A stretch of 64,000 bases of DNA from Nostoc sp. PCC 7107 (lineage in GTDB: Bacteria; Cyanobacteriota; Cyanobacteriia; Cyanobacteriales; Nostocaceae). The translations under genes and the position numbers were made by a program. Below, one piece after another: positions 5,775 through 25,293 of the stretch. The first letter of the stretch is position 1, and each line of letters begins with the position of its first letter. The DNA lies in NCBI RefSeq assembly GCF_000316625.1, contig NC_019676.1:5970501-6034500 (forward strand). Direction: 5' to 3'. The notes beneath the pieces were generated by a model that was not told where the DNA came from, did no database searches, and saw only the letters and a program-made list of their open reading frames with translations.

Positions 5775-6448
5775 TCTGCACAAATACCGGGCAATCACCA
5801 TAATTGCATTGAGACTCTCCCCAAACCGTAGTGTTTGGTATTTCGCTGTGCTTCGTTAAGCTGAACTGGCCTACTCTGGAGAAAAACAGCATCAGATCAG
5901 CTTTTTTGTCAAAAAATCAGGATTTAATTATTTGACAAGTGAAATAGAAGTATACGCGATTCTTGTAACCAAGATTCGTGGTGATGTTTCCATATCTCCG
6001 ATGCGATCGCTTTATTCAGTTAATTACTTTATCTAAAGTTCATGAAGCATAGATATTATTTGGCTTTTTAGTAATCTTTTGACTACGTTATGCTATTCGC
6101 CGCAGAGATATTTTTTCCCTCAGCAATGATGAAATCAAATAAGCTTTGAACTTTATCCTAAAAATTTAAAATTATTATTTTTCTTGATAATTATAAGCAT
6201 CGTGTTTCTAGGAAATTACTTAAAACTTTATTTACCATGAATTTTCTTTGTATTTTTTTTATAAACTTGAGAAAACATCGCAATTAAGTATTCAATGAAG
6301 ATTATTTAAAGCCTAAAAATCACGGTTATAATAGCCTTAACACTAAAAATCAAGCAAATATTACCTTATGTGGTAAGTGCTTACTAAATAATTTTATGAT
6401 TGGAAATTTCAAGGAGGGCAAATTTTAATTTGCTTCGATTTTTAGATA

Positions 6449-6478
6449 TACAAATTTAGAAAATTTTCTAAATTTGTA
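6449..6478. repeat. 30-bp perfect palindrome
   Basis: The arms TACAAATTTAGAAAA and TTTTCTAAATTTGTA are exact reverse complements with no spacer. It could be a protein-binding site or a cruciform/terminator-like structure. It sits in the middle of the gene-poor region, immediately after a smaller inverted repeat. Confidence 0.8.
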
Positions 6479-6746
6479 GTGAAATTTGACTAAATATTTG
6501 GAACAGGAGGCAGATGTTTATTTTAATTGATAAACTCCTGAAATAAAGATGGTGATGTGTGCGAAAAAACAAACATATTTAAACATTTACGAAAATCTTT
6601 AAACGGAATTCGTAAACAACATCAACATCACTGTATTACTACTTTTAGTAGTTACTAATAAAATCTCAAATTCCACTGGCTGAGATAAAGGAGGCTGCTT
6701 ATGTTTGCTTAAACACTAAATATGAATTTGTGGATATCTACACCCA

Positions 6747-6833
6747 ATGAGTACCCAAAAAACAGCCGCTAGATCAAAGGTAAATACTTTTTTAGATGAG
6801 AGCAATCGCCTACAGGTGCGTACTATTGGGTAA
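6747..6833 (+). CDS. Possible small protein, 28 aa
   Basis: The ORF begins MSTQKTAARSKVNTFLDE and ends VRTIG. Composition is polar and basic, unlike random AT-rich translation, but no ribosome site is obvious and no family is recognised. It is a weak candidate listed because the surrounding 1.5 kb has no other product. Confidence 0.2.
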   Translation: MSTQKTAARSKVNTFLDESNRLQVRTIG

Positions 6834-7280
6834 TTACCAGCCAAATATACACACCTAATAATCAATAGACCTATTAAGGTCTCAAGTTATTCAAGAAATT
6901 GTCTCTCAAGAACTGTACGCTGATCTTTAATAAAGCAGAGAAGTTGAAATACTTTATGCGAATAAAAATCTTGGTAATCTCCATTGAGTGATACTTAGGT
7001 GTCGCAAATTAATTTAGAGAATTTAATTGTCTGGTTTTCTTGAAAACATCAGTATTGCAATTGTTACAAGACATGAATGTACACTAAGGACTTTTCCTGC
7101 CACAATAGTAATCCCGTTCTGATTATCTTCTGGGAAAATGATGAATAATTTGACAAAATGGCAATTTTTTGTGTCTATAGCATTGCTTGTTTCTTGACAC
7201 AAACTCTGATAATCTTATTCCTCCTTGTCCGGAGTCTTTTGTTGTTTTGATGGTGTTAATATACAGCAGATAGCATGATA

Positions 7281-7448
7281 ATGACTAATAAAAAATGGGC
7301 CGTTAAACGTATCACTGTGAATTTAGCAACACAGGAAGCAGAGAAACTAGAAAAATATTGTCAGCAGACAGGTAGACCTGCAACAGATGTAATTCGAGAA
7401 CTGATTCGCGGATTACCGACATCTGATGACAACAAAGAAGCAAAATAG
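7281..7448 (+). CDS. Ribbon-helix-helix (CopG/Arc-type) DNA-binding protein, 55 aa
   Basis: A small basic protein whose core follows the RHH pattern: a beta strand (VKRITVNLA), then helix 1 (TQEAEKLEKYCQQTG) and helix 2 (RPATDVIRELIRGL). Such proteins bind DNA as dimers through the strand and act as repressors or antitoxins. No toxin gene follows, so an orphan regulator is more likely than an antitoxin. An alternative in-frame ATG lies two codons upstream at 7275. The tail after the domain is acidic and polar (PTSDDNKEAK). It was found by reading the DNA directly because of its size. Confidence 0.75.
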   Translation: MTNKKWAVKRITVNLATQEAEKLEKYCQQTGRPATDVIRELIRGLPTSDDNKEAK

Positions 7449-7802
7449 ATAGGGAAAATCAGGAATTTTTTCACAGCGTCGTAGATTGTCGCTGGGATAC
7501 CTAAAAAATACCTATCATGCTTTTTTCAGTCCACCTTTACTAAAGTTTGTGTGGGTCAACACAAGCATTTTGCAGGCAGTAAATTTTAGTGATCAGGAAT
7601 CAAATAAAGTAATAAACGCAATTTTATTACTAATGGGTTAAAACTCATCGTGCATCTACATACTGGTGGACTCCTGATAAATCTCTGACAACTAACTTCT
7701 AACTCAGCGAGTGTAAAACCTCGCAAATAGGCTTGATGTTAATAGCAAATTCCGACACCAACCCAGTTACAATTTGTAAAGAAACTGAAGAGGTAGGACG
7801 GA
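7449..7802. other. Upstream region of zds
   Basis: This 354-bp region should hold the promoter of the carotenoid gene. I see no gene. A mild A/T-rich tract and the ribosome site AGGTAGGACGGA directly before the zds ATG are the only features noted. Confidence 0.5.
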
Positions 7803-9242
7803 ATGCGCGTTGCAATCGTAGGTGCGGGATTGGCTGGGCTGGCAACCGCTGTAGATTTAGCTGATGCTGGCTGTGAAGTCCAGATTTTTGAGTCCCGTCC
7901 GTTTGTTGGTGGTAAAGTCGGCAGTTGGGTAGATGGCGATGGCAATCATGTAGAAATGGGGTTGCACGTCTTCTTTGGCTGCTACTACCAATTATTTGAC
8001 TTAATGGAAAAAGTGGGGGCGTTGTCACATTTACACCTCAAAGAACACTCCCATACCTTTATTAATAAAGGGGGACGCACTGGTGCTTTAGATTTTCGCT
8101 TTTTCACAGGTGCGCCTTTTAATGGATTGAAAGCATTTTTTACTACTTCCCAACTATCATTACAAGATAAATTGCAAAATGCGATCGCTCTAGGAACCAG
8201 TCCCATAGTCCGAGGACTGGTAGACTTCGACGGGGCGATGAAAACCATCCGCAAACTAGATAACATTAGCTTTGCCGATTGGTTTCGTCGTCACGGTGGT
8301 AGTGAAGGTAGCATTAAACGGATGTGGAATCCCATTGCTTATGCTTTGGGATTCATTGACTGCGACAATATTTCTGCCCGTTGTATGTTGACTATCTTCC
8401 AGTTTTTCGCTGTGAGAAGTGAAGCCTCTGTACTGCGGATGCTGGAAGGTTCCCCTGATGGGTACTTACACAAACCCATCGTGGATTATTTAGCTGCAAG
8501 AGGAACTAAAATTTATACTCGTCGGCAAGTGCGAGAAATTCAATTTGCCGAAGGTGATGGACAAACCTGCGTTACTGGCATTGTAATAGCTCAGGGCGAT
8601 ACTACAGAAACTATTACAGCTGATGCCTATGTCTGTGCTTGTGACATTCCCGGAATTCAGCGTATTTTGCCATCCGATTGGCGAAAATGGTCACAATTTG
8701 ACAATATTTATAAATTAGATGCAGTCCCCGTTGCCACAGTACAATTGCGGTTCGATGGTTGGGTGACAGAACTGCAAGATGCAGAGAAACGTAAACAACT
8801 CAACCATGCAGTCGGCATAGATAACTTACTCTACACTGCTGACGCAGACTTTTCTTGTTTTGCCGACTTGGCATTAACTAGTCCCAGTGATTACTATCGC
8901 CCAGGACAAGGTTCGTTGCTGCAACTGGTACTCACACCAGGAGATCCGTTTATTAAAGAAAGTAACGAAGCGATCGCCCAACACGTCCTCAAGCAAGTGC
9001 ATGAACTCTTTCCCTCATCACGGGAACTGAACATGACTTGGTATGGAGTCGTGAAACTTGCTCAATCTCTTTATCGAGAAGCGCCAGGAATGGACGCATA
9101 TCGTCCTAACCAAAAAACTCCCATACCAAACTTTTTCTTAGCAGGTAGTTATACTCAGCAAGATTATATCGATAGTATGGAAGGAGCGACAATTTCGGGA
9201 AGAAGGGCAGCAAAAGCGATTTTAGAGAGTATCAAGCAGTAG
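7803..9242 (+). CDS. zds: Zeta-carotene desaturase
   Basis: A 479-residue FAD enzyme that desaturates 9,9'-di-cis-zeta-carotene to prolycopene through neurosporene, using plastoquinone as acceptor, on the cyanobacterial membranes. The N-terminal dinucleotide motif [18 protein letters not shown] is followed by the family's [14 protein letters not shown]. The C-terminus has the second FAD signature ([19 protein letters not shown]). Length matches plant-type CrtQ/ZDS and not the bacterial CrtI desaturase. It is followed 24 bp later by an SRPBCC protein, a pairing I recall from many cyanobacteria, and the two are probably co-transcribed. Confidence 0.95.
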
Positions 9243-10645: not shown

Positions 10646-12121
10646 CTATGACAAAAAGGGTGTTAAGTCTAAATGGCGTTCTACTTCCGTAGCCAGCGAG
10701 TCTAAGATTTGCTCTCGCTGTTCTCGGTAGTTGGCTACACCTGTGGGCAAGGATTTTAAACCGCGCTGTTGACGCAGGCGATTTAACCAAGCACGTCGCC
10801 AAGGGCCGTTATCAAATAGTCCGTGCAGATAAGTACCCCAAACTGATTGACAACTATCCACCAACCCTAGATTAACATCATCAAATAAGGCTTGAAATGC
10901 TTGACTATCTGGTGGCTGTTCGATGCGCGATCGCCCTTGGTGAATTTCAAACCCATTGACTGGTAAGCCTGCTTGGGGATAATTTGAGCTAACTTGACGC
11001 TGACGAGCAATTTTTTGTCCTGTAATGACGGTTCTAATGGGCAATAAATTTAGACCCTGAAATCTGCCGGCTTGTCCTTCTATACCTTCAGGGTCAGCAA
11101 TAATTTGTCCTAACATTTGATAGCCGCCACAAATCCCTAAAACTGTCCCACCAGAAGCGGCATAATTTTGGATTGCTTCTGCCATACCGCTTTTCTGCAA
11201 TAAAATTAAGTCGGCAATGGTGGTTTTTGTCCCAGGAAGAATTACCGCATCTGGGTGTCCCAAGTCTTGTTTTGGGCTGAGATATCTCACAGAAACTGTC
11301 GGTTCTGATTCTAAGGGGTCAAAGTCGGTAAAGTTGGCAATTCTGGGTAAGCGGATGACAACTATATTTAAGTCAGCTTGAGTTTTATATGATTTTCGAT
11401 CTAGTAAATCGAGGGAGTCTTCAGCGGGAAATATTTCTTGAAAGTAAGGTAAAACGCCAATCACAGGTTTTTTGGTGCGTTCTTCTAGCCATTTTATCCC
11501 TGAATCTAAAAGCGATCGCTGTCCACGGAATTTGTTAATGACAATACCTTTAATTAAATCCCGTTCATCTGGGTCAAGTAATTCTAAAGTCCCGACTACA
11601 TGGGCAAAAGCACCACCACGGTCAATATCTACTACCAAAATTGTAGGTGCATTTAAATACTTGGCTATCCGCATATTTGTCAGGTCGCGGTGCTTAAGGT
11701 TAATTTCTGCTGGACTCCCTGCACCTTCGCAAACCAATATGTCAAATTCGGTGGATAGATGTTGAAGAGATTCTTCTATGGCTCGCCAACCAAGGTCAAA
11801 AAATTGTTCGTAGTAATCTGCTGCTTTAACTCGTCCTACAGGTCTACCTTTAACAATTACCTGGGAAGTCATATCACCTTGGGGTTTCAGTAAAATGGGA
11901 TTCATTTCTACCCAAGGAACCACCCCAGAAGCCCACGCTTGTACCGCCTGTGCATAACCAATTTCGCCCCCATTGGCAGTGACATAAGCATTTAAAGCCA
12001 TATTTTGACCTTTAAAGGGAGCCACTCGCCAACCACGCCGTGACAACAAACGGCAAATAGCAGTAGTTAAGAGTGATTTCCCTGCGTGGGATGTTGTCCC
12101 CACTACCATAATTGCTTTCAT
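10646..12121 (-). CDS. cobQ: Cobyric acid synthase
   Basis: A 491-residue glutamine-dependent amidotransferase that amidates four side chains of adenosylcobyrinic acid a,c-diamide in cobalamin synthesis. The N-terminal nucleotide-binding domain begins MVVGTTSHAGKSLL. The C-terminal class I-like glutaminase domain has the nucleophile Cys in LGICGGYQMLG and the catalytic His in GTYLHGLFDN. The length is that of the family. Pseudocobalamin synthesis is usual in cyanobacteria. No other cob genes are adjacent. Confidence 0.96.
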   Translation of the reverse strand: MKAIMVVGTTSHAGKSLLTTAICRLLSRRGWRVAPFKGQNMALNAYVTANGGEIGYAQAVQAWASGVVPWVEMNPILLKPQGDMTSQVIVKGRPVGRVKAADYYEQFFDLGWRAIEESLQHLSTEFDILVCEGAGSPAEINLKHRDLTNMRIAKYLNAPTILVVDIDRGGAFAHVVGTLELLDPDERDLIKGIVINKFRGQRSLLDSGIKWLEERTKKPVIGVLPYFQEIFPAEDSLDLLDRKSYKTQADLNIVVIRLPRIANFTDFDPLESEPTVSVRYLSPKQDLGHPDAVILPGTKTTIADLILLQKSGMAEAIQNYAASGGTVLGICGGYQMLGQIIADPEGIEGQAGRFQGLNLLPIRTVITGQKIARQRQVSSNYPQAGLPVNGFEIHQGRSRIEQPPDSQAFQALFDDVNLGLVDSCQSVWGTYLHGLFDNGPWRRAWLNRLRQQRGLKSLPTGVANYREQREQILDSLATEVERHLDLTPFLS

Positions 12122-12394
12122 ACTTAATGTCGGTTTTTTATAATAGGGTGGAATAGGTTATGAACGGGTGATATTGCCATCCGTTCATCAACAGTTATAC
12201 GTTAAGAAGCTAACAGAACTACAGGTAGGAAAAATATTCACACCCAAGTTAATGGCCCAGATTACTTACATAACTCTCATCAAAATCTGCAAAAATTGGT
12301 CAGATGTTGATGAAGAATTTATATTGGGTTTGATGCTTCCGTAGATATATTGTTCCCTTTTGTAACCTAAATATTAACTTTAAGATTTTCAATT

Positions 12395-12799
12395 CTAAAA
12401 AGGTAGTCTCAACCAACGGATGCCTGCATTGTACAGGTAATCTTGCCAGGAAGGGGTAGTCCAATTTTTTCCCTGATATTTTTCTACTAGTTGATAACCT
12501 AAAGGCGTGAGGCGAAAACTATCGGTAATTCCCTGGCCATCAACTTCGCGCCGCAGTACACCGACTTGGATTAACCAGTCCAAAGCGTTATAACAACTCA
12601 GTTCTGATAAGGGACGCTGAGTATAACCTTGCTGGACACCATTTTCTAGGGCGATCGCATTTAATGGTACACTCTGGTTACGCATGGCTGTGAATAAACC
12701 AACAGTGAAAGGACAACAAATTAGCGATCGCTCGGCTCTTTCTACTGTGGTACGTGAGTAAGAGAAGATTTTCGAGTTTGGGGAATCAATAATAGCCAT
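12395..12799 (-). CDS. Conserved cyanobacterial protein (Npun_F0494-like), 134 aa
   Basis: A soluble protein with a helix-rich layout that fits a winged-helix DNA-binding fold (YNALDWLIQVGVLRREVD, then FRLTPLGYQLVEKYQG). I recall it as the cyanobacterial family named after Npun_F0494, but I cannot confirm this. It ends in an aromatic tail (GIRWLRLPF). It is divergent from the peroxiredoxin gene with a shared 180-bp upstream region. Confidence 0.6.
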   Translation of the reverse strand: MAIIDSPNSKIFSYSRTTVERAERSLICCPFTVGLFTAMRNQSVPLNAIALENGVQQGYTQRPLSELSCYNALDWLIQVGVLRREVDGQGITDSFRLTPLGYQLVEKYQGKNWTTPSWQDYLYNAGIRWLRLPF

Positions 12800-15017: not shown

Positions 15018-16037
15018 CTATCTCATATTTTGCTTCTTTTCTGCTTTGGGATCACGGTTAGCCACTGCGGCCAGTTCTGCATCCATTAAGGTGCGTCCAG
15101 TGGCTGCGAGGTACACATCATCTAAGCTAGGGCGAGATTGAGCGATGCCGAATATTGGTAAGCTTGCATGATTGAGGGTTTGCTGAATGGTAATTAGGGC
15201 ATCATTTTGGGGTGTGACTACTAAATTCAGAGAATTACCTTGAGCGCTGTTAATGATGATTTCTTGGACAAAAGGTAAAGCTTGTAAGAGGTCTTTGGCT
15301 TTTTCGGCTTCCTCAAGGGGAGAAAATTCCCGAATGCGTAAGGTAATGCGATCGCCTCCTACTCTATCTTTTAATTGTGAGGGTGTACCTGTGGCAATGA
15401 CAATCCCACGGTCAATAATAGCGACGCGATCTGCTAGTGCGTCAATCTCTTCTAAATAATGGCTGGTAATTAATACTGTTGTTCCTGATACCCGCAACTT
15501 CCGCAGGAAATCCCACACAACAAAACGGCTTTCGATGTCTAGTCCTACGGATGGTTCGTCCAACACCAATACATCCGGTGCATGGAGTAACCCAGCCGCT
15601 AAATCAAGGCGTTTGCGTAAACCACCAGAATAAGTTCCTGTCTTTTTATCAGCGTATTCTTGCAAACTCAGTAAATCTAAAACCGTCTGAATTCGCTGTT
15701 TTGCTACCGCGCCAGGGAGGTGATAAAGCGCCGCTTGTAATTGCAGCAGTTCTCGTCCAGTCAACACTTTATCTATAGCAACTTCCTGCGCTACATAACC
15801 GAGTTTTTGCCTTGCTACTCTGGGGTTATCCAACACAGAAATTCCAGATACTTCAATTTTGCCAGCATCTGGAGTGGTGAGGGTACACAAAGCACGCAGA
15901 GTAGTAGTTTTACCTGCACCGTTGGGGCCGAGTAAACCAAAGATTTCTCCTGACTCGACTTCAAAAGAAACATCTTTGACGGCTTCAACAGTACCGTAGC
16001 GCTTTTGCAGATTTTGAATTAAAACGGCGGGAGCCAT
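15018..16037 (-). CDS. ABC transporter ATP-binding protein (DrrA family)
   Basis: A 339-residue ATPase. Walker A is GLLGPNGAGKTT (about 34-45), the signature is YSGGLRKRLDLA, Walker B is VLVLDEPSVGLD and the switch His is in ITSHYLEE. The extra C-terminal domain of about 100 residues and the overall layout match the daunorubicin-resistance DrrA group. The ATG at 16037 is preferred over an upstream TTG because a GGGA ribosome site lies nine bases before it. The gene is upstream of the permease on the same strand; together they make an exporter. Confidence 0.92.
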   Translation of the reverse strand: MAPAVLIQNLQKRYGTVEAVKDVSFEVESGEIFGLLGPNGAGKTTTLRALCTLTTPDAGKIEVSGISVLDNPRVARQKLGYVAQEVAIDKVLTGRELLQLQAALYHLPGAVAKQRIQTVLDLLSLQEYADKKTGTYSGGLRKRLDLAAGLLHAPDVLVLDEPSVGLDIESRFVVWDFLRKLRVSGTTVLITSHYLEEIDALADRVAIIDRGIVIATGTPSQLKDRVGGDRITLRIREFSPLEEAEKAKDLLQALPFVQEIIINSAQGNSLNLVVTPQNDALITIQQTLNHASLPIFGIAQSRPSLDDVYLAATGRTLMDAELAAVANRDPKAEKKQNMR

Positions 16038-16176
16038 GACAGCCAATCCCTAACTATACAATTCGCAACAAAGTCTATATATCTATTGTAGTTGAGTAGT
16101 GTTAGGTGAAGCGATCGCTGGGATACGACTCGTTTATTTTATGGATTGGGGACTTCTAAGGAATAAAATCACCACA

Positions 16177-22789: not shown

Positions 22790-23090
22790 GAATTTTCTCC
22801 ACTAGCAAACCACAGTCTTTAGGATAAACGTTTGACTCTTCGTCACAATATTTCAAAAGGTTACATTTAGATTAATATTTTCCTAAATTGCCTAAATAAC
22901 ACATTCTTTGATGCTCATCTGCAATAAATATGTAGAATTGAAAAAAGTCGTGTCTATTTATCAGGGCTTACGCATAAACTATGGAAAATCCAACTACTCC
23001 AGACGCAGAGTTCACAGAGGAATGAGAGTTTGAGAGGTTTTTTATGTAAGTCTTAATTTAGAAAACTACTCAACTCTTATTAAATCTAAT
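22790..23090. other. Intergenic region between cydA and the AAA ATPase
   Basis: About 300 bp between divergent genes. It should contain the cydA promoter and holds a diverged MITE copy (22962-23055) directly upstream of the ATPase gene. Confidence 0.5.
22962..23055. mobile_element. Diverged second copy of the 93-bp MITE
   Basis: Ends CAGGGCTTACGC and ATGTAAGTCTTA match the terminal repeats of the hicA-inserted element imperfectly. The interior shares GGAAAATC, GACGCAGAG, and GAATGAGAGTTTGAGAGG-like blocks in the same order. It lies 35 bases upstream of the AAA ATPase start and may affect its expression. The flanking duplication is not clear. Confidence 0.8.
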
Positions 23091-24413
23091 ATGAATCAAC
23101 CACTACTGAAGTTTATTGTCACTAAAAACTATAAGAATTTGTCATTAGAAGATGCGATTAATCTGGAAAATTTAAACATATTTATAGGTTCAAATGGTTC
23201 AGGGAAAAGTAATTATATCAGTTGCTTAAAACTTTTAAGAGATAGCCTAACAGAAATTACTGACGAAAGTCGTCGCGTTAGTAGCTTTAAAGATGCGGTT
23301 TTACAAATTGGTGGTGATAGAATCTTAGATGCAAATGTTAAAAACTCGGATCAAGTAAAATTTATATACTGTTTTTATTTTCCTGAAAATCTTCCAAATC
23401 AAAATAATATATGCTTTAATAATATATTATTTAATTTAGAGCTTGATGTAAGTAGAAATAGAAATGGCTTCGGAGGATTCTTTCTCTCTAAAGAAGATTT
23501 ATACGGTGTTGAAAAAATAGGTAAATCAGCATCTAATCCATTTTATTATTATCAAGCTCTGTTTGACATATTTGGTAGAAATTCTATATCAATCTCTAAT
23601 AAAATAGACCAATCCGATAATATCACATTGACGGATTCAAATAATATAAGAGAGAATTCTTTACTCTTTTCTTCTATTCTCAAGCTGCTGGAATATAGTA
23701 AACATCCTGTTTATTCTACACCTGTTTACAAAGTTAGAAAGGACTTGATAGAGTTTGTTTCAAAATGGCAATTTTATAACGCCAATAATATGGACATAAA
23801 TCTCATCAGAATGTCAGAGCCAAAACTGGGAGGAAGTGACATTTATTTATCAAAAACTGGAGATAACTTACCGTTAGTAATAGATAACTTATTTCAACGA
23901 GATATAGATTTTGAAGAAAGTCTCAACCTAGCTTTGAAATCAATTTTACCTAAAAGCCGTCGTCTGCGTCCTATACGTTCTGGAAGACTATCTCTAACTT
24001 TAGAATGGTACTTTGAAGATATCAAAGAACCTTTTTATATAAATGAATTATCTGATGGCACGGTGAGAATGTTATGTTGGGCTACTATCTTACATTCCCC
24101 AGTTCTACCGTCGTTACTAGTAATTGATGAACCAGAATTAGGACTGCACGTATCATGGATGCCAGTTTTAGCTGAGTGGATTAAAAAAGCTGCTACAAAA
24201 ACTCAAGTAATTATCACCACACACAGTCCTGACCTTTTAGACCATTTTACAGATTTTTTAGAAAATGTTTTCTGTTTTTATTCAAAAGATAAAACCCATT
24301 TCTCTATCAAAACTCTCTCAAAAGAAATACTTAACGAAAAATTAGAAGAGGGATGGCAATTAGGTGATTTGTATCGTATCGGCGACCCCAGCGTTGGAGG
24401 ATGGCCGTGGTAG
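23091..24413 (+). CDS. AAA family ATPase (OLD/SMC-like, DUF2813-type)
   Basis: A 440-residue ABC/SMC-like ATPase. Walker A is GSNGSGKSN at about 33-41. Walker B and the D-loop are in LLVIDEPELGLHVSW at about 340-355, preceded by an ABC-like signature (NELSDGTVRML), and the switch His is in ITTHSPDLLDHF. This layout is that of OLD-family-like ATPases found in phage-defence modules. It lacks a fused nuclease; the next gene, overlapping by 13 bases, encodes a TOPRIM-like protein. The gene is AT-rich compared with its neighbours, which suggests acquisition. Its target is unknown. Confidence 0.85.
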   Translation: MNQPLLKFIVTKNYKNLSLEDAINLENLNIFIGSNGSGKSNYISCLKLLRDSLTEITDESRRVSSFKDAVLQIGGDRILDANVKNSDQVKFIYCFYFPENLPNQNNICFNNILFNLELDVSRNRNGFGGFFLSKEDLYGVEKIGKSASNPFYYYQALFDIFGRNSISISNKIDQSDNITLTDSNNIRENSLLFSSILKLLEYSKHPVYSTPVYKVRKDLIEFVSKWQFYNANNMDINLIRMSEPKLGGSDIYLSKTGDNLPLVIDNLFQRDIDFEESLNLALKSILPKSRRLRPIRSGRLSLTLEWYFEDIKEPFYINELSDGTVRMLCWATILHSPVLPSLLVIDEPELGLHVSWMPVLAEWIKKAATKTQVIITTHSPDLLDHFTDFLENVFCFYSKDKTHFSIKTLSKEILNEKLEEGWQLGDLYRIGDPSVGGWPW

Positions 24414-25126
24414 TATGGGTTTTTGCTGGTGGTGGGGAAGCTGAGGTTAGAGGCTTGATTCCTTTTTTAGAAAGAACTTTTCCCGGTTGTAAATTTGAAA
24501 GAAAAACGCCAGTATATCAAAAGCCTGGCCCTAAACCTAATAAAGTCAATAGTTATGGCAGAACTGGTAAAAGTTTGATTGAGCAAATTAAGCGAGAGTT
24601 ACCTACTGCTTTAAAGTACACACCAAATGAGTGTACTTTAATATTAGTTTTTGATGATTTAGATTGTCGCAATCCCAATGAGCAAAAAGAAAATATCTTA
24701 GCAGAAATATCAATAATCCCCGACTGTAACAATATAAATAAGTTTGTTGGGTTTGCATCTCCTGAATTGGAAGCTTGTATTCTTGCAGATTGGAACAATT
24801 CAGTAGCAAAACATCCCGATTTTAAAGGTAGACATGAGCGTATGCGTTGGTGGTTGAGTAAACAAAAAAATATTCCTTTTGATAATCCAGAATCATTTAG
24901 TGAGTACGACCCTAAAAGAGGTTGTTGTCAAGAAAAATTATCACAAGCACTAGTTGATTCAAGTGTTCTTGATGAGTTTGATAGTAGTTCAACACGCTTT
25001 TCTAAAGGATTACATACACCTGAGTTATTAAGCTATATCAATTCCAATGAAGTTCAAAAAAGATGCCCTTTATTTCGTGAACTCTATAACTACTTAAATA
25101 ATTTGTGTAACTCTGCATCAAGTTGA
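24401..25126 (+). CDS. TOPRIM-like protein (DUF4276-like), partner of the AAA ATPase
   Basis: A 241-residue soluble protein. The acidic residues of a TOPRIM fold can be traced: Glu13 in FAGGGEAEVRGLIPFL, the DxD in LVFDDLDC (Asp86 and Asp88), and Glu122 in SPELEACILADW. The latter motif is like that of DUF4276 and RloB-type proteins that sit beside AAA ATPases. A nuclease that needs metal is the likely activity. The start overlaps the ATPase gene by 13 bases, implying coupled translation. There are nine cysteines, more than usual for its neighbours. Assignment to DUF4276 is by motif only. Confidence 0.7.
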   Translation: MAVVVWVFAGGGEAEVRGLIPFLERTFPGCKFERKTPVYQKPGPKPNKVNSYGRTGKSLIEQIKRELPTALKYTPNECTLILVFDDLDCRNPNEQKENILAEISIIPDCNNINKFVGFASPELEACILADWNNSVAKHPDFKGRHERMRWWLSKQKNIPFDNPESFSEYDPKRGCCQEKLSQALVDSSVLDEFDSSSTRFSKGLHTPELLSYINSNEVQKRCPLFRELYNYLNNLCNSASS

Positions 25127-25158
25127 ATTTGCAGCTTATTAGTGGTAGATTACACCAT

Positions 25159-25190
25159 CTAATCCCTCTTCATCAATAAGGAGGGATTAG
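25159..25190 (+). terminator. Terminator of the ATPase/TOPRIM operon
   Basis: CTAATCCCTC and GAGGGATTAG form a perfect 10-bp stem with a 12-base loop, 33 bases after the stop codon. A T-rich stretch (GTTTTTAG) follows a few bases later. Confidence 0.65.
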
Positions 25191-25293
25191 GGTAAGTTTT
25201 TAGAAAAATCAAACCTAAAATTATCACTGTGTTGTCAGTTGCAATTTTGGCAAAATGTCAAAAAATATCCGGCTAATACACAGTTATTTGAGA

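Follow-up and report, generated by a model that had tools for sequence, protein, structure and literature searches.

Introduction

Split pairs of an AAA ATPase and a TOPRIM-type protein are emerging as an important class of effectors in phage defence and in toxin–antitoxin systems. In the PARIS system, as described in passages of PMC12409363, AriA sequesters AriB, which is a tRNase. According to passages of PMC10440598, TOPRIM_OLD toxins neutralised by AAA proteins have been validated in Escherichia coli, and part of PMC6755086 describes mutants of BpOLD that have a single metal site and still nick DNA. TOPRIM-linked OLD-ABC dyads occur in BREX loci, an observation that a passage of PMC12839542 credits to Krishnan et al. 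2020. Passages of PMC12988326 credit several Hma-embedded candidates, including HEC-06, with antiviral activity and make no mention of HEC-01. In the open-licence literature searched, no paper was found that names DUF4276, that contains both HEC-01 and PADLOC, or that joins TOPRIM, AAA ATPase, abortive infection, and cyanobacteria. Here we analysed an overlapping gene pair, A and B, at positions 23091 to 25126 of a 64,000-nucleotide stretch of Nostoc sp. PCC 7107 (the window; contig NC_019676.1, positions 5,970,501 to 6,034,500 of the forward strand). Sequence comparison placed the pair among the AAA + DUF4276 dyads (PADLOC candidate HEC-01), as a branch that has diverged from the rest and not as a novel system. 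This branch of the suspected virus-defence pairs is old and widespread.

Results

Kinship of the pair with AAA + DUF4276 dyads

Gene A (23091..24413, + strand) encodes an SMC/OLD-type ABC ATPase of 440 aa with a conserved C-terminal tail, GDLYRxGDPxxGGWPW, and gene B (24407..25126, + strand) encodes a DUF4276-like, TOPRIM-like partner. The Walker A motif GSNGSGKSN reported for A by the first-pass annotation was confirmed, and both open reading frames (ORFs) were found where it had placed them. In a PADLOC scan, A matched the HEC-01A model PDLC04177 (1.4e-45, residues 20-438) as well as AbiLi (7.7e-22) and an AriA-like ATPase. Its fold was nearest to SMC/Rad50 heads and PtuA, and the predicted model of the 440 aa contained no long coiled coil. 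The best HEC-01B model matched 40 of 44 rows of the B family at E<=0.01, and DUF4276 matched 43 of the 44 at the same threshold (best 2e-12). Several members exceeded the Pfam DUF4276 cut-off, with the match beginning at profile position 33 or later. The B protein of the window itself matched DUF4276 weakly (E 0.0035, 18 bits), under the 30.2-bit cut-off.

For comparison, we used the 30 loci fetched in a DUF4276 profile search of cyanobacteria, all of them canonical. An A-type frame of 366-493 codons directly preceded DUF4276 in 28, ending at most about 41 bases before the match; of the exceptions, L162 held a 98-codon piece only, and the piece in L160 stopped about 1.1 kb upstream of the match. 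Canonical ATPase tails, such as LGELWKKNIIGGRP, resembled the LGDLYRxGDPxxGGWPW of the present branch. Because the order of ATPase before DUF4276 is shared and the tails are alike, the pair was assigned to a divergent branch of the known dyad. The earlier proposal that this split, compact pair is a distinct type was therefore retained as to a conserved, divergent branch and dropped as to a separate kind of system. The DUF4276 profile was matched in 65 of 292 cyanobacterial genomes, a count that includes the present branch. Up to nine DUF4276 matches per genome were seen in G226 and other cyanobacterial genomes, and AAA + DUF4276 dyads may therefore be a large uncharacterised cyanobacterial family.

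Distribution and co-occurrence of A and B

A scan of genome contigs found 77 loci with B. Their hosts were Cyanobacteria, Desulfobacterota and other deltaproteobacteria, giant sulfur bacteria, Methylobacter (with Gammaproteobacteria among the groups), Magnetococcales, and Caldilineaceae. Co-location of the homologues with the ATPase, which the first-pass annotation had made a test of its proposal, was observed in 75 of the 77 loci, and the two loci without a relative of A (L093 and L094) also held only part of B. By the rule applied, A counted as intact at 62 loci and B at 64, with 57 loci holding both genes intact; contig ends, near-misses of the rule, and eroded genes are among the remainder. 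Among 386 cyanobacterial genomes, 29 matched B, ten of these as fragments only, and one of the ten (G302, 3.9e-4) falls on a canonical DUF4276 gene and is perhaps not a true member. A was matched at E<=1e-55 in 26 of the 386, of which 25 also matched B; in the 26th (G226), without a B match, the locus runs into the end of its contig. In a quick tree built from 58 rows, the seven from Chloroflexota formed a single group, most of those from cyanobacteria fell together, and the window copy sat on a long end branch (0.35).

HetR is a mark of filamentous growth, and the named cyanobacteria with B matches look filamentous in morphology. HetR (PF03574) was present in 24 of the 29 cyanobacterial genomes with a B match versus 55 of the 357 without, a link that is confounded by phylogeny, as DUF4276-positive genomes were also mostly HetR-positive (46/65). 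Calothrix sp. PCC 7716 carried two copies (L024 and L091), one intact and one with B cut to 81 residues, and at G181:C19:48575-49849 pieces of A and B shared one 438-residue open frame, perhaps a fusion by deletion.

B lacks the invariant TOPRIM glutamate

In the structural model, B was predicted to fold like an OLD TOPRIM domain with an added helical region. The sequence of B matched no PDB chain up to E 10, and a Foldseek search with B alone gave neither a PDB entry nor a viral model at E<=0.001. AriB was not seen in the list of structural matches for B, an absence that excludes nothing. The first-pass annotation had traced the TOPRIM acidic positions to Glu13, Asp86/Asp88, and Glu122. Asp86/Asp88 (43/44) and Glu122 (44/44) were borne out; Glu13, found in 36 of 44 rows, is not the TOPRIM glutamate. 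Glu15, Glu122, Glu124, and Asp130 were conserved in all 44 rows and Asp85, Asp86, and Asp88 in 43 each, so that the TOPRIM DxD (D86/D88) is present. The invariant TOPRIM glutamate in the loop after strand 1 was absent from all 44 partners, being replaced by glycine in 43 and serine in one. At this site, which in the window corresponds to the codons of G10-G12 (24428..24436, + strand), the branch carries the motif FAGGGxxE; it retains the DxD, the PExE, and the second glutamate (E15).

All 29 canonical DUF4276 proteins from cyanobacteria had a glutamate at this place, and G10 of B aligned with it in all three MAFFT modes. When hhalign was run against four canonical DUF4276 groups and the pooled set, groups 2 and 3 aligned from residue 63 or 80 on, and groups 1 and 4 and the pooled set over only about the last 40 residues. 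Since hhalign did not reach the N-terminal region significantly, the register there rests on MAFFT, the canonical sequences, and the model. One HMMER alignment, with a non-significant score, placed a one-residue gap beside G10/G11 and paired E15 with the second canonical glutamate. PF14103 had no match in the same genome or in 14 controls, and this result was not used as an absence.

The nine cysteines of B, earlier described as unusual, were confirmed in number. Only three of them are fixed: C89 and C176 (44/44 each) and C222 (43/44). C78 was present in 39 of 44 rows. C126 (24776-24778) was unique to the window copy, with tryptophan in 43 of 44, and together with the long tree branch indicates a possible mild relaxation of the window pair. 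A metal site made of C78, C89, C176, C222, and H205 was considered.

Start of B and the coding junction

The first-pass annotation had B, as a 241-residue protein, overlap A by 13 bases, which corresponds to a start at ATG 24401. Neither the overlap nor the start is likely to hold. ATG 24401 directly abuts GGAGG with zero spacing, and GTG 24407 (codon 3) lies 6 bases past it. Wherever A was intact (62 loci), codon 3 was a legal start (GTG 40, TTG 12, ATG 10, CTG 0), and codon 1 was CTG in 11 of these loci. The motif ahead of codon 1, 6 bases ahead of codon 3, was GGAGG in 43, GGGGG in 18, and AGAGGG in one. With CCC making up 257 of the 1318 proline codons in the body of A, an unconstrained codon 3 would give about 12 CTG; the loci are related, and no exact probability is claimed. 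Based on the pattern of start codons, the spacing from GGAGG, and the missing CTG at codon 3, the start was therefore placed at 24407. B probably begins at this GTG, giving an overlap of 7 bases and a protein of 239 aa (241 aa if from ATG 24401). The GGAGG (24396..24400, + strand), within Gly-Gly codons of A, is its probable ribosome-binding site. The coding junction was nearly identical across phyla, the tail of A being GGWPW in 61 of the 62 loci. Given the overlap and its conservation, translation of B is probably coupled to that of A.

Genomic site and selection

In Nostoc and relatives, the pair was located near cydA (4 of 77 loci) and ald (5 of 77). Among 11 genomes of the genus, a full B match was found in G000 only. 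At the same site, sister strain G008 held an eroded copy with a miniature inverted-repeat transposable element (MITE), and in G004 and G006 cydA and ald were about 930 bases apart with no pair between them. The remaining seven genomes had no cydA within the flank examined, some flanks being shortened by contig ends. The common ancestor of G000 and G008 thus already carried the module here, and its loss is under way. In other clades the sites differed, with flanks, judged by eye, such as acpP/fabF and lpxC/fabZ. The ratio of nonsynonymous to synonymous substitution rates (dN/dS) was 0.16-0.26 for the window copy (seven comparisons with five relatives) and 0.12-0.41 for close pairs elsewhere; the one outlier, 1.21, came from the B genes of two nearly identical loci. 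Carriage by mobile elements was considered and rejected, as neither the viral contigs nor the plasmids held a match; the search did not extend to the phage-record collection.

Neighbouring genes

For a defence-island test, 42 chosen loci yielded 154 near neighbours (two per side, 100-900 aa), of which the first 150 were scanned, with 103 far neighbours serving as the control. At E<=1e-15, 68 PADLOC families matched in the near set and 6 in the far set, and no family matched more than two of the 150 near or more than two of the 103 far neighbours. Ten near proteins picked by eye were rescanned. In L048, a HEC-06/Orf5 gene accounted for 22 families and a PD-T4-6-like kinase gene for 28; an ATPase of L085 accounted for 5, a ClpC-like gene of L023 for 3, and the remaining six proteins for none. 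The excess of 68 over 6 families thus arose at least largely because many models match the same proteins, and defence-island enrichment was rejected; distinct proteins over the whole set were uncounted, which leaves room for a weak enrichment. The near set also contained an SspB-like match (2.8e-92) and, at L085, a second ATPase that is NsnB/AriA-like. The only clear defence-like surroundings traced were those of L048, an Oscillatoriales bin, in which the pair lies between the PD-T4-6-like kinase and HEC-06/Orf5-type genes (6165-8384 and 10843-12540), the latter being next after B with a strong model match (1.7e-226). The neighbourhood gives little for a defence role.

Immediate surroundings of the pair in the window

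The AT-richness noted earlier was verified, with a GC content of 33.0% for the pair versus 41.4% for the window. A GC as low was seen in 4 of 310 equal-sized sliding stretches, which overlap and some of which may cover the pair itself. A hairpin terminator-like site (25158..25201, + strand) lies between the convergent genes B and ald, and its 13-pair stem and T-rich tail agreed with the terminator previously assigned to the pair. The scan found two such sites versus 1.1 in shuffles, so that the count alone is no evidence; this stretch had no second copy in the same genome. Upstream of the pair, the MITE-like dispersed repeat of the first-pass annotation was likewise located, at about 22962..23055, with imperfect inverted ends. 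With 40 of its 69 candidates scored, a 136-base probe had at least 40 matches in its own genome including the window copy, the others at 79-95% identity, and the MITE also adjoined the eroded copy in G008. It is a bystander without a part in the function. The 50 window ORFs outside the pair gave PADLOC matches to 11 families with one member each, including PDC-M72A (2.5e-85) and ankyrin, HEAT, and helicase-like ones. A mad3 match elsewhere in the window was discarded, as the local A3 profile found only an ABC-transporter-like ORF (15021-16046).

Discussion

We lean slightly towards reading the pair as an effector module of two genes, complete in itself, that is of the PARIS/OLD-like toxin–neutraliser type and acts probably on phage infection. 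Overlap-coupled translation would make A and B together, and an ATP-driven oligomer of A, probably helped by its C-terminal tail, may hold B inactive, by analogy with AriA/AriB and the AAA/TOPRIM_OLD pairs. A trigger, probably phage infection, would release B. Free B would then damage nucleic acid, with RNA as the likeliest target, and thereby halt the growth of the infected cell. The metal site of B would be altered, with glycine for the first glutamate and with E15, D86/D88, and E122/E124 kept. Since that glutamate is missing, a weaker or differently organised site is likely, and B may be a weaker, nicking, or one-metal-like nuclease. A defence role is proposed because of the kinship with HEC-01, the patchy presence, and the erosion in sister strains. 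Direct evidence for such a role was not found: the genes around the pair mostly resemble housekeeping genes (recurrent flanking families), and the pair had no match among viral contigs or plasmids. A more specific proposal, which we hold as tentative and rather doubtful, is a TOPRIM-derived effector without the invariant glutamate that has rebuilt its metal site (E15, DDLDC, PExE, and possibly C89/C176/C222) for ATPase-controlled abortive infection, concentrated in filamentous bacteria.

Loss of the first glutamate from all 44 partners is also consistent with B being a catalytically dead, TOPRIM-like binder of nucleic acid or a ligand that regulates A, with the SMC/Rad50-like A doing the work, such as gripping or looping DNA. 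The fold of A, nearest to SMC/Rad50 heads and PtuA, points the same way. However, each of the remaining acidic positions is retained in at least 43 of the 44 rows, unexpected for a dead site, and A has only 440 aa and a model without a long coiled coil; we regard this account as unlikely. The housekeeping look of the recurrent flanks, sites that are stable within clades, the lack of plasmid and viral contig matches, and the frequency of HetR in B-positive genomes (24/29 versus 55/357) would fit a housekeeping or stress-response module unrelated to phage defence, for DNA or RNA maintenance in large filamentous bacteria. This is less probable still, given the patchy presence, the sister strains that hold an eroded copy or none at this site, close kin that are candidate defence dyads, and the phylogenetic confounding of the HetR link (46 of 65 DUF4276-positive genomes).

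The two-gene order with its overlap, and the toxin–antitoxin action of AAA/TOPRIM_OLD pairs in E. coli in passages of PMC10440598, might instead indicate a selfish pair kept by addiction without benefit to the host. Against such a pair stand the lack of plasmid matches, persistence within clades under purifying selection, and loss in sister strains, and we consider it very improbable. The surprise in this conserved pair is that an invariant residue was lost throughout a family that spans several phyla and has retained the rest of its site. A deep subfamily lacking this key glutamate would offer a direct test of which part of the TOPRIM site killing needs. If B is active, the definition of a TOPRIM nuclease would be widened; if it is inactive, such ATPases would be shown to work with a non-catalytic partner.

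Compared with known systems, the pair resembles PARIS in its split ABC ATPase and TOPRIM-like partner and in the match of A to an AriA-like ATPase; it differs in that AriB loses activity as E26A, in passages of PMC12409363, and the counterpart of this residue seems absent in B. OLD nucleases and GajA of Gabija differ in that here there are two separate genes and the first TOPRIM glutamate is missing, and no GajB-like helicase was seen by eye among the recurring flanking families, so the pair does not classify as Gabija. A separate ATPase with an OLD-type partner is shared with the AAA/TOPRIM_OLD toxin–antitoxin pairs and with AbiL (RloB), but the RloB profile matched only one of 44 B rows, at 0.0052. 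A resembles MAD3 of MADS, and B resembles MAD4 very weakly, yet both fall far under the NCBIfam cut-offs (66.1 versus 420 bits and 12.5 versus 160), which does not place the pair in MADS. The closest likeness in arrangement is to HEC-01, with the same two kinds of protein in the same order and canonical A tails that likewise end in GGxP. From these dyads the branch is set apart by a window B under the DUF4276 cut-off (18 versus 30.2 bits), by FAGGGxxE in place of EGxTE, by a nearly fixed overlap, and by its GGWPW tail.
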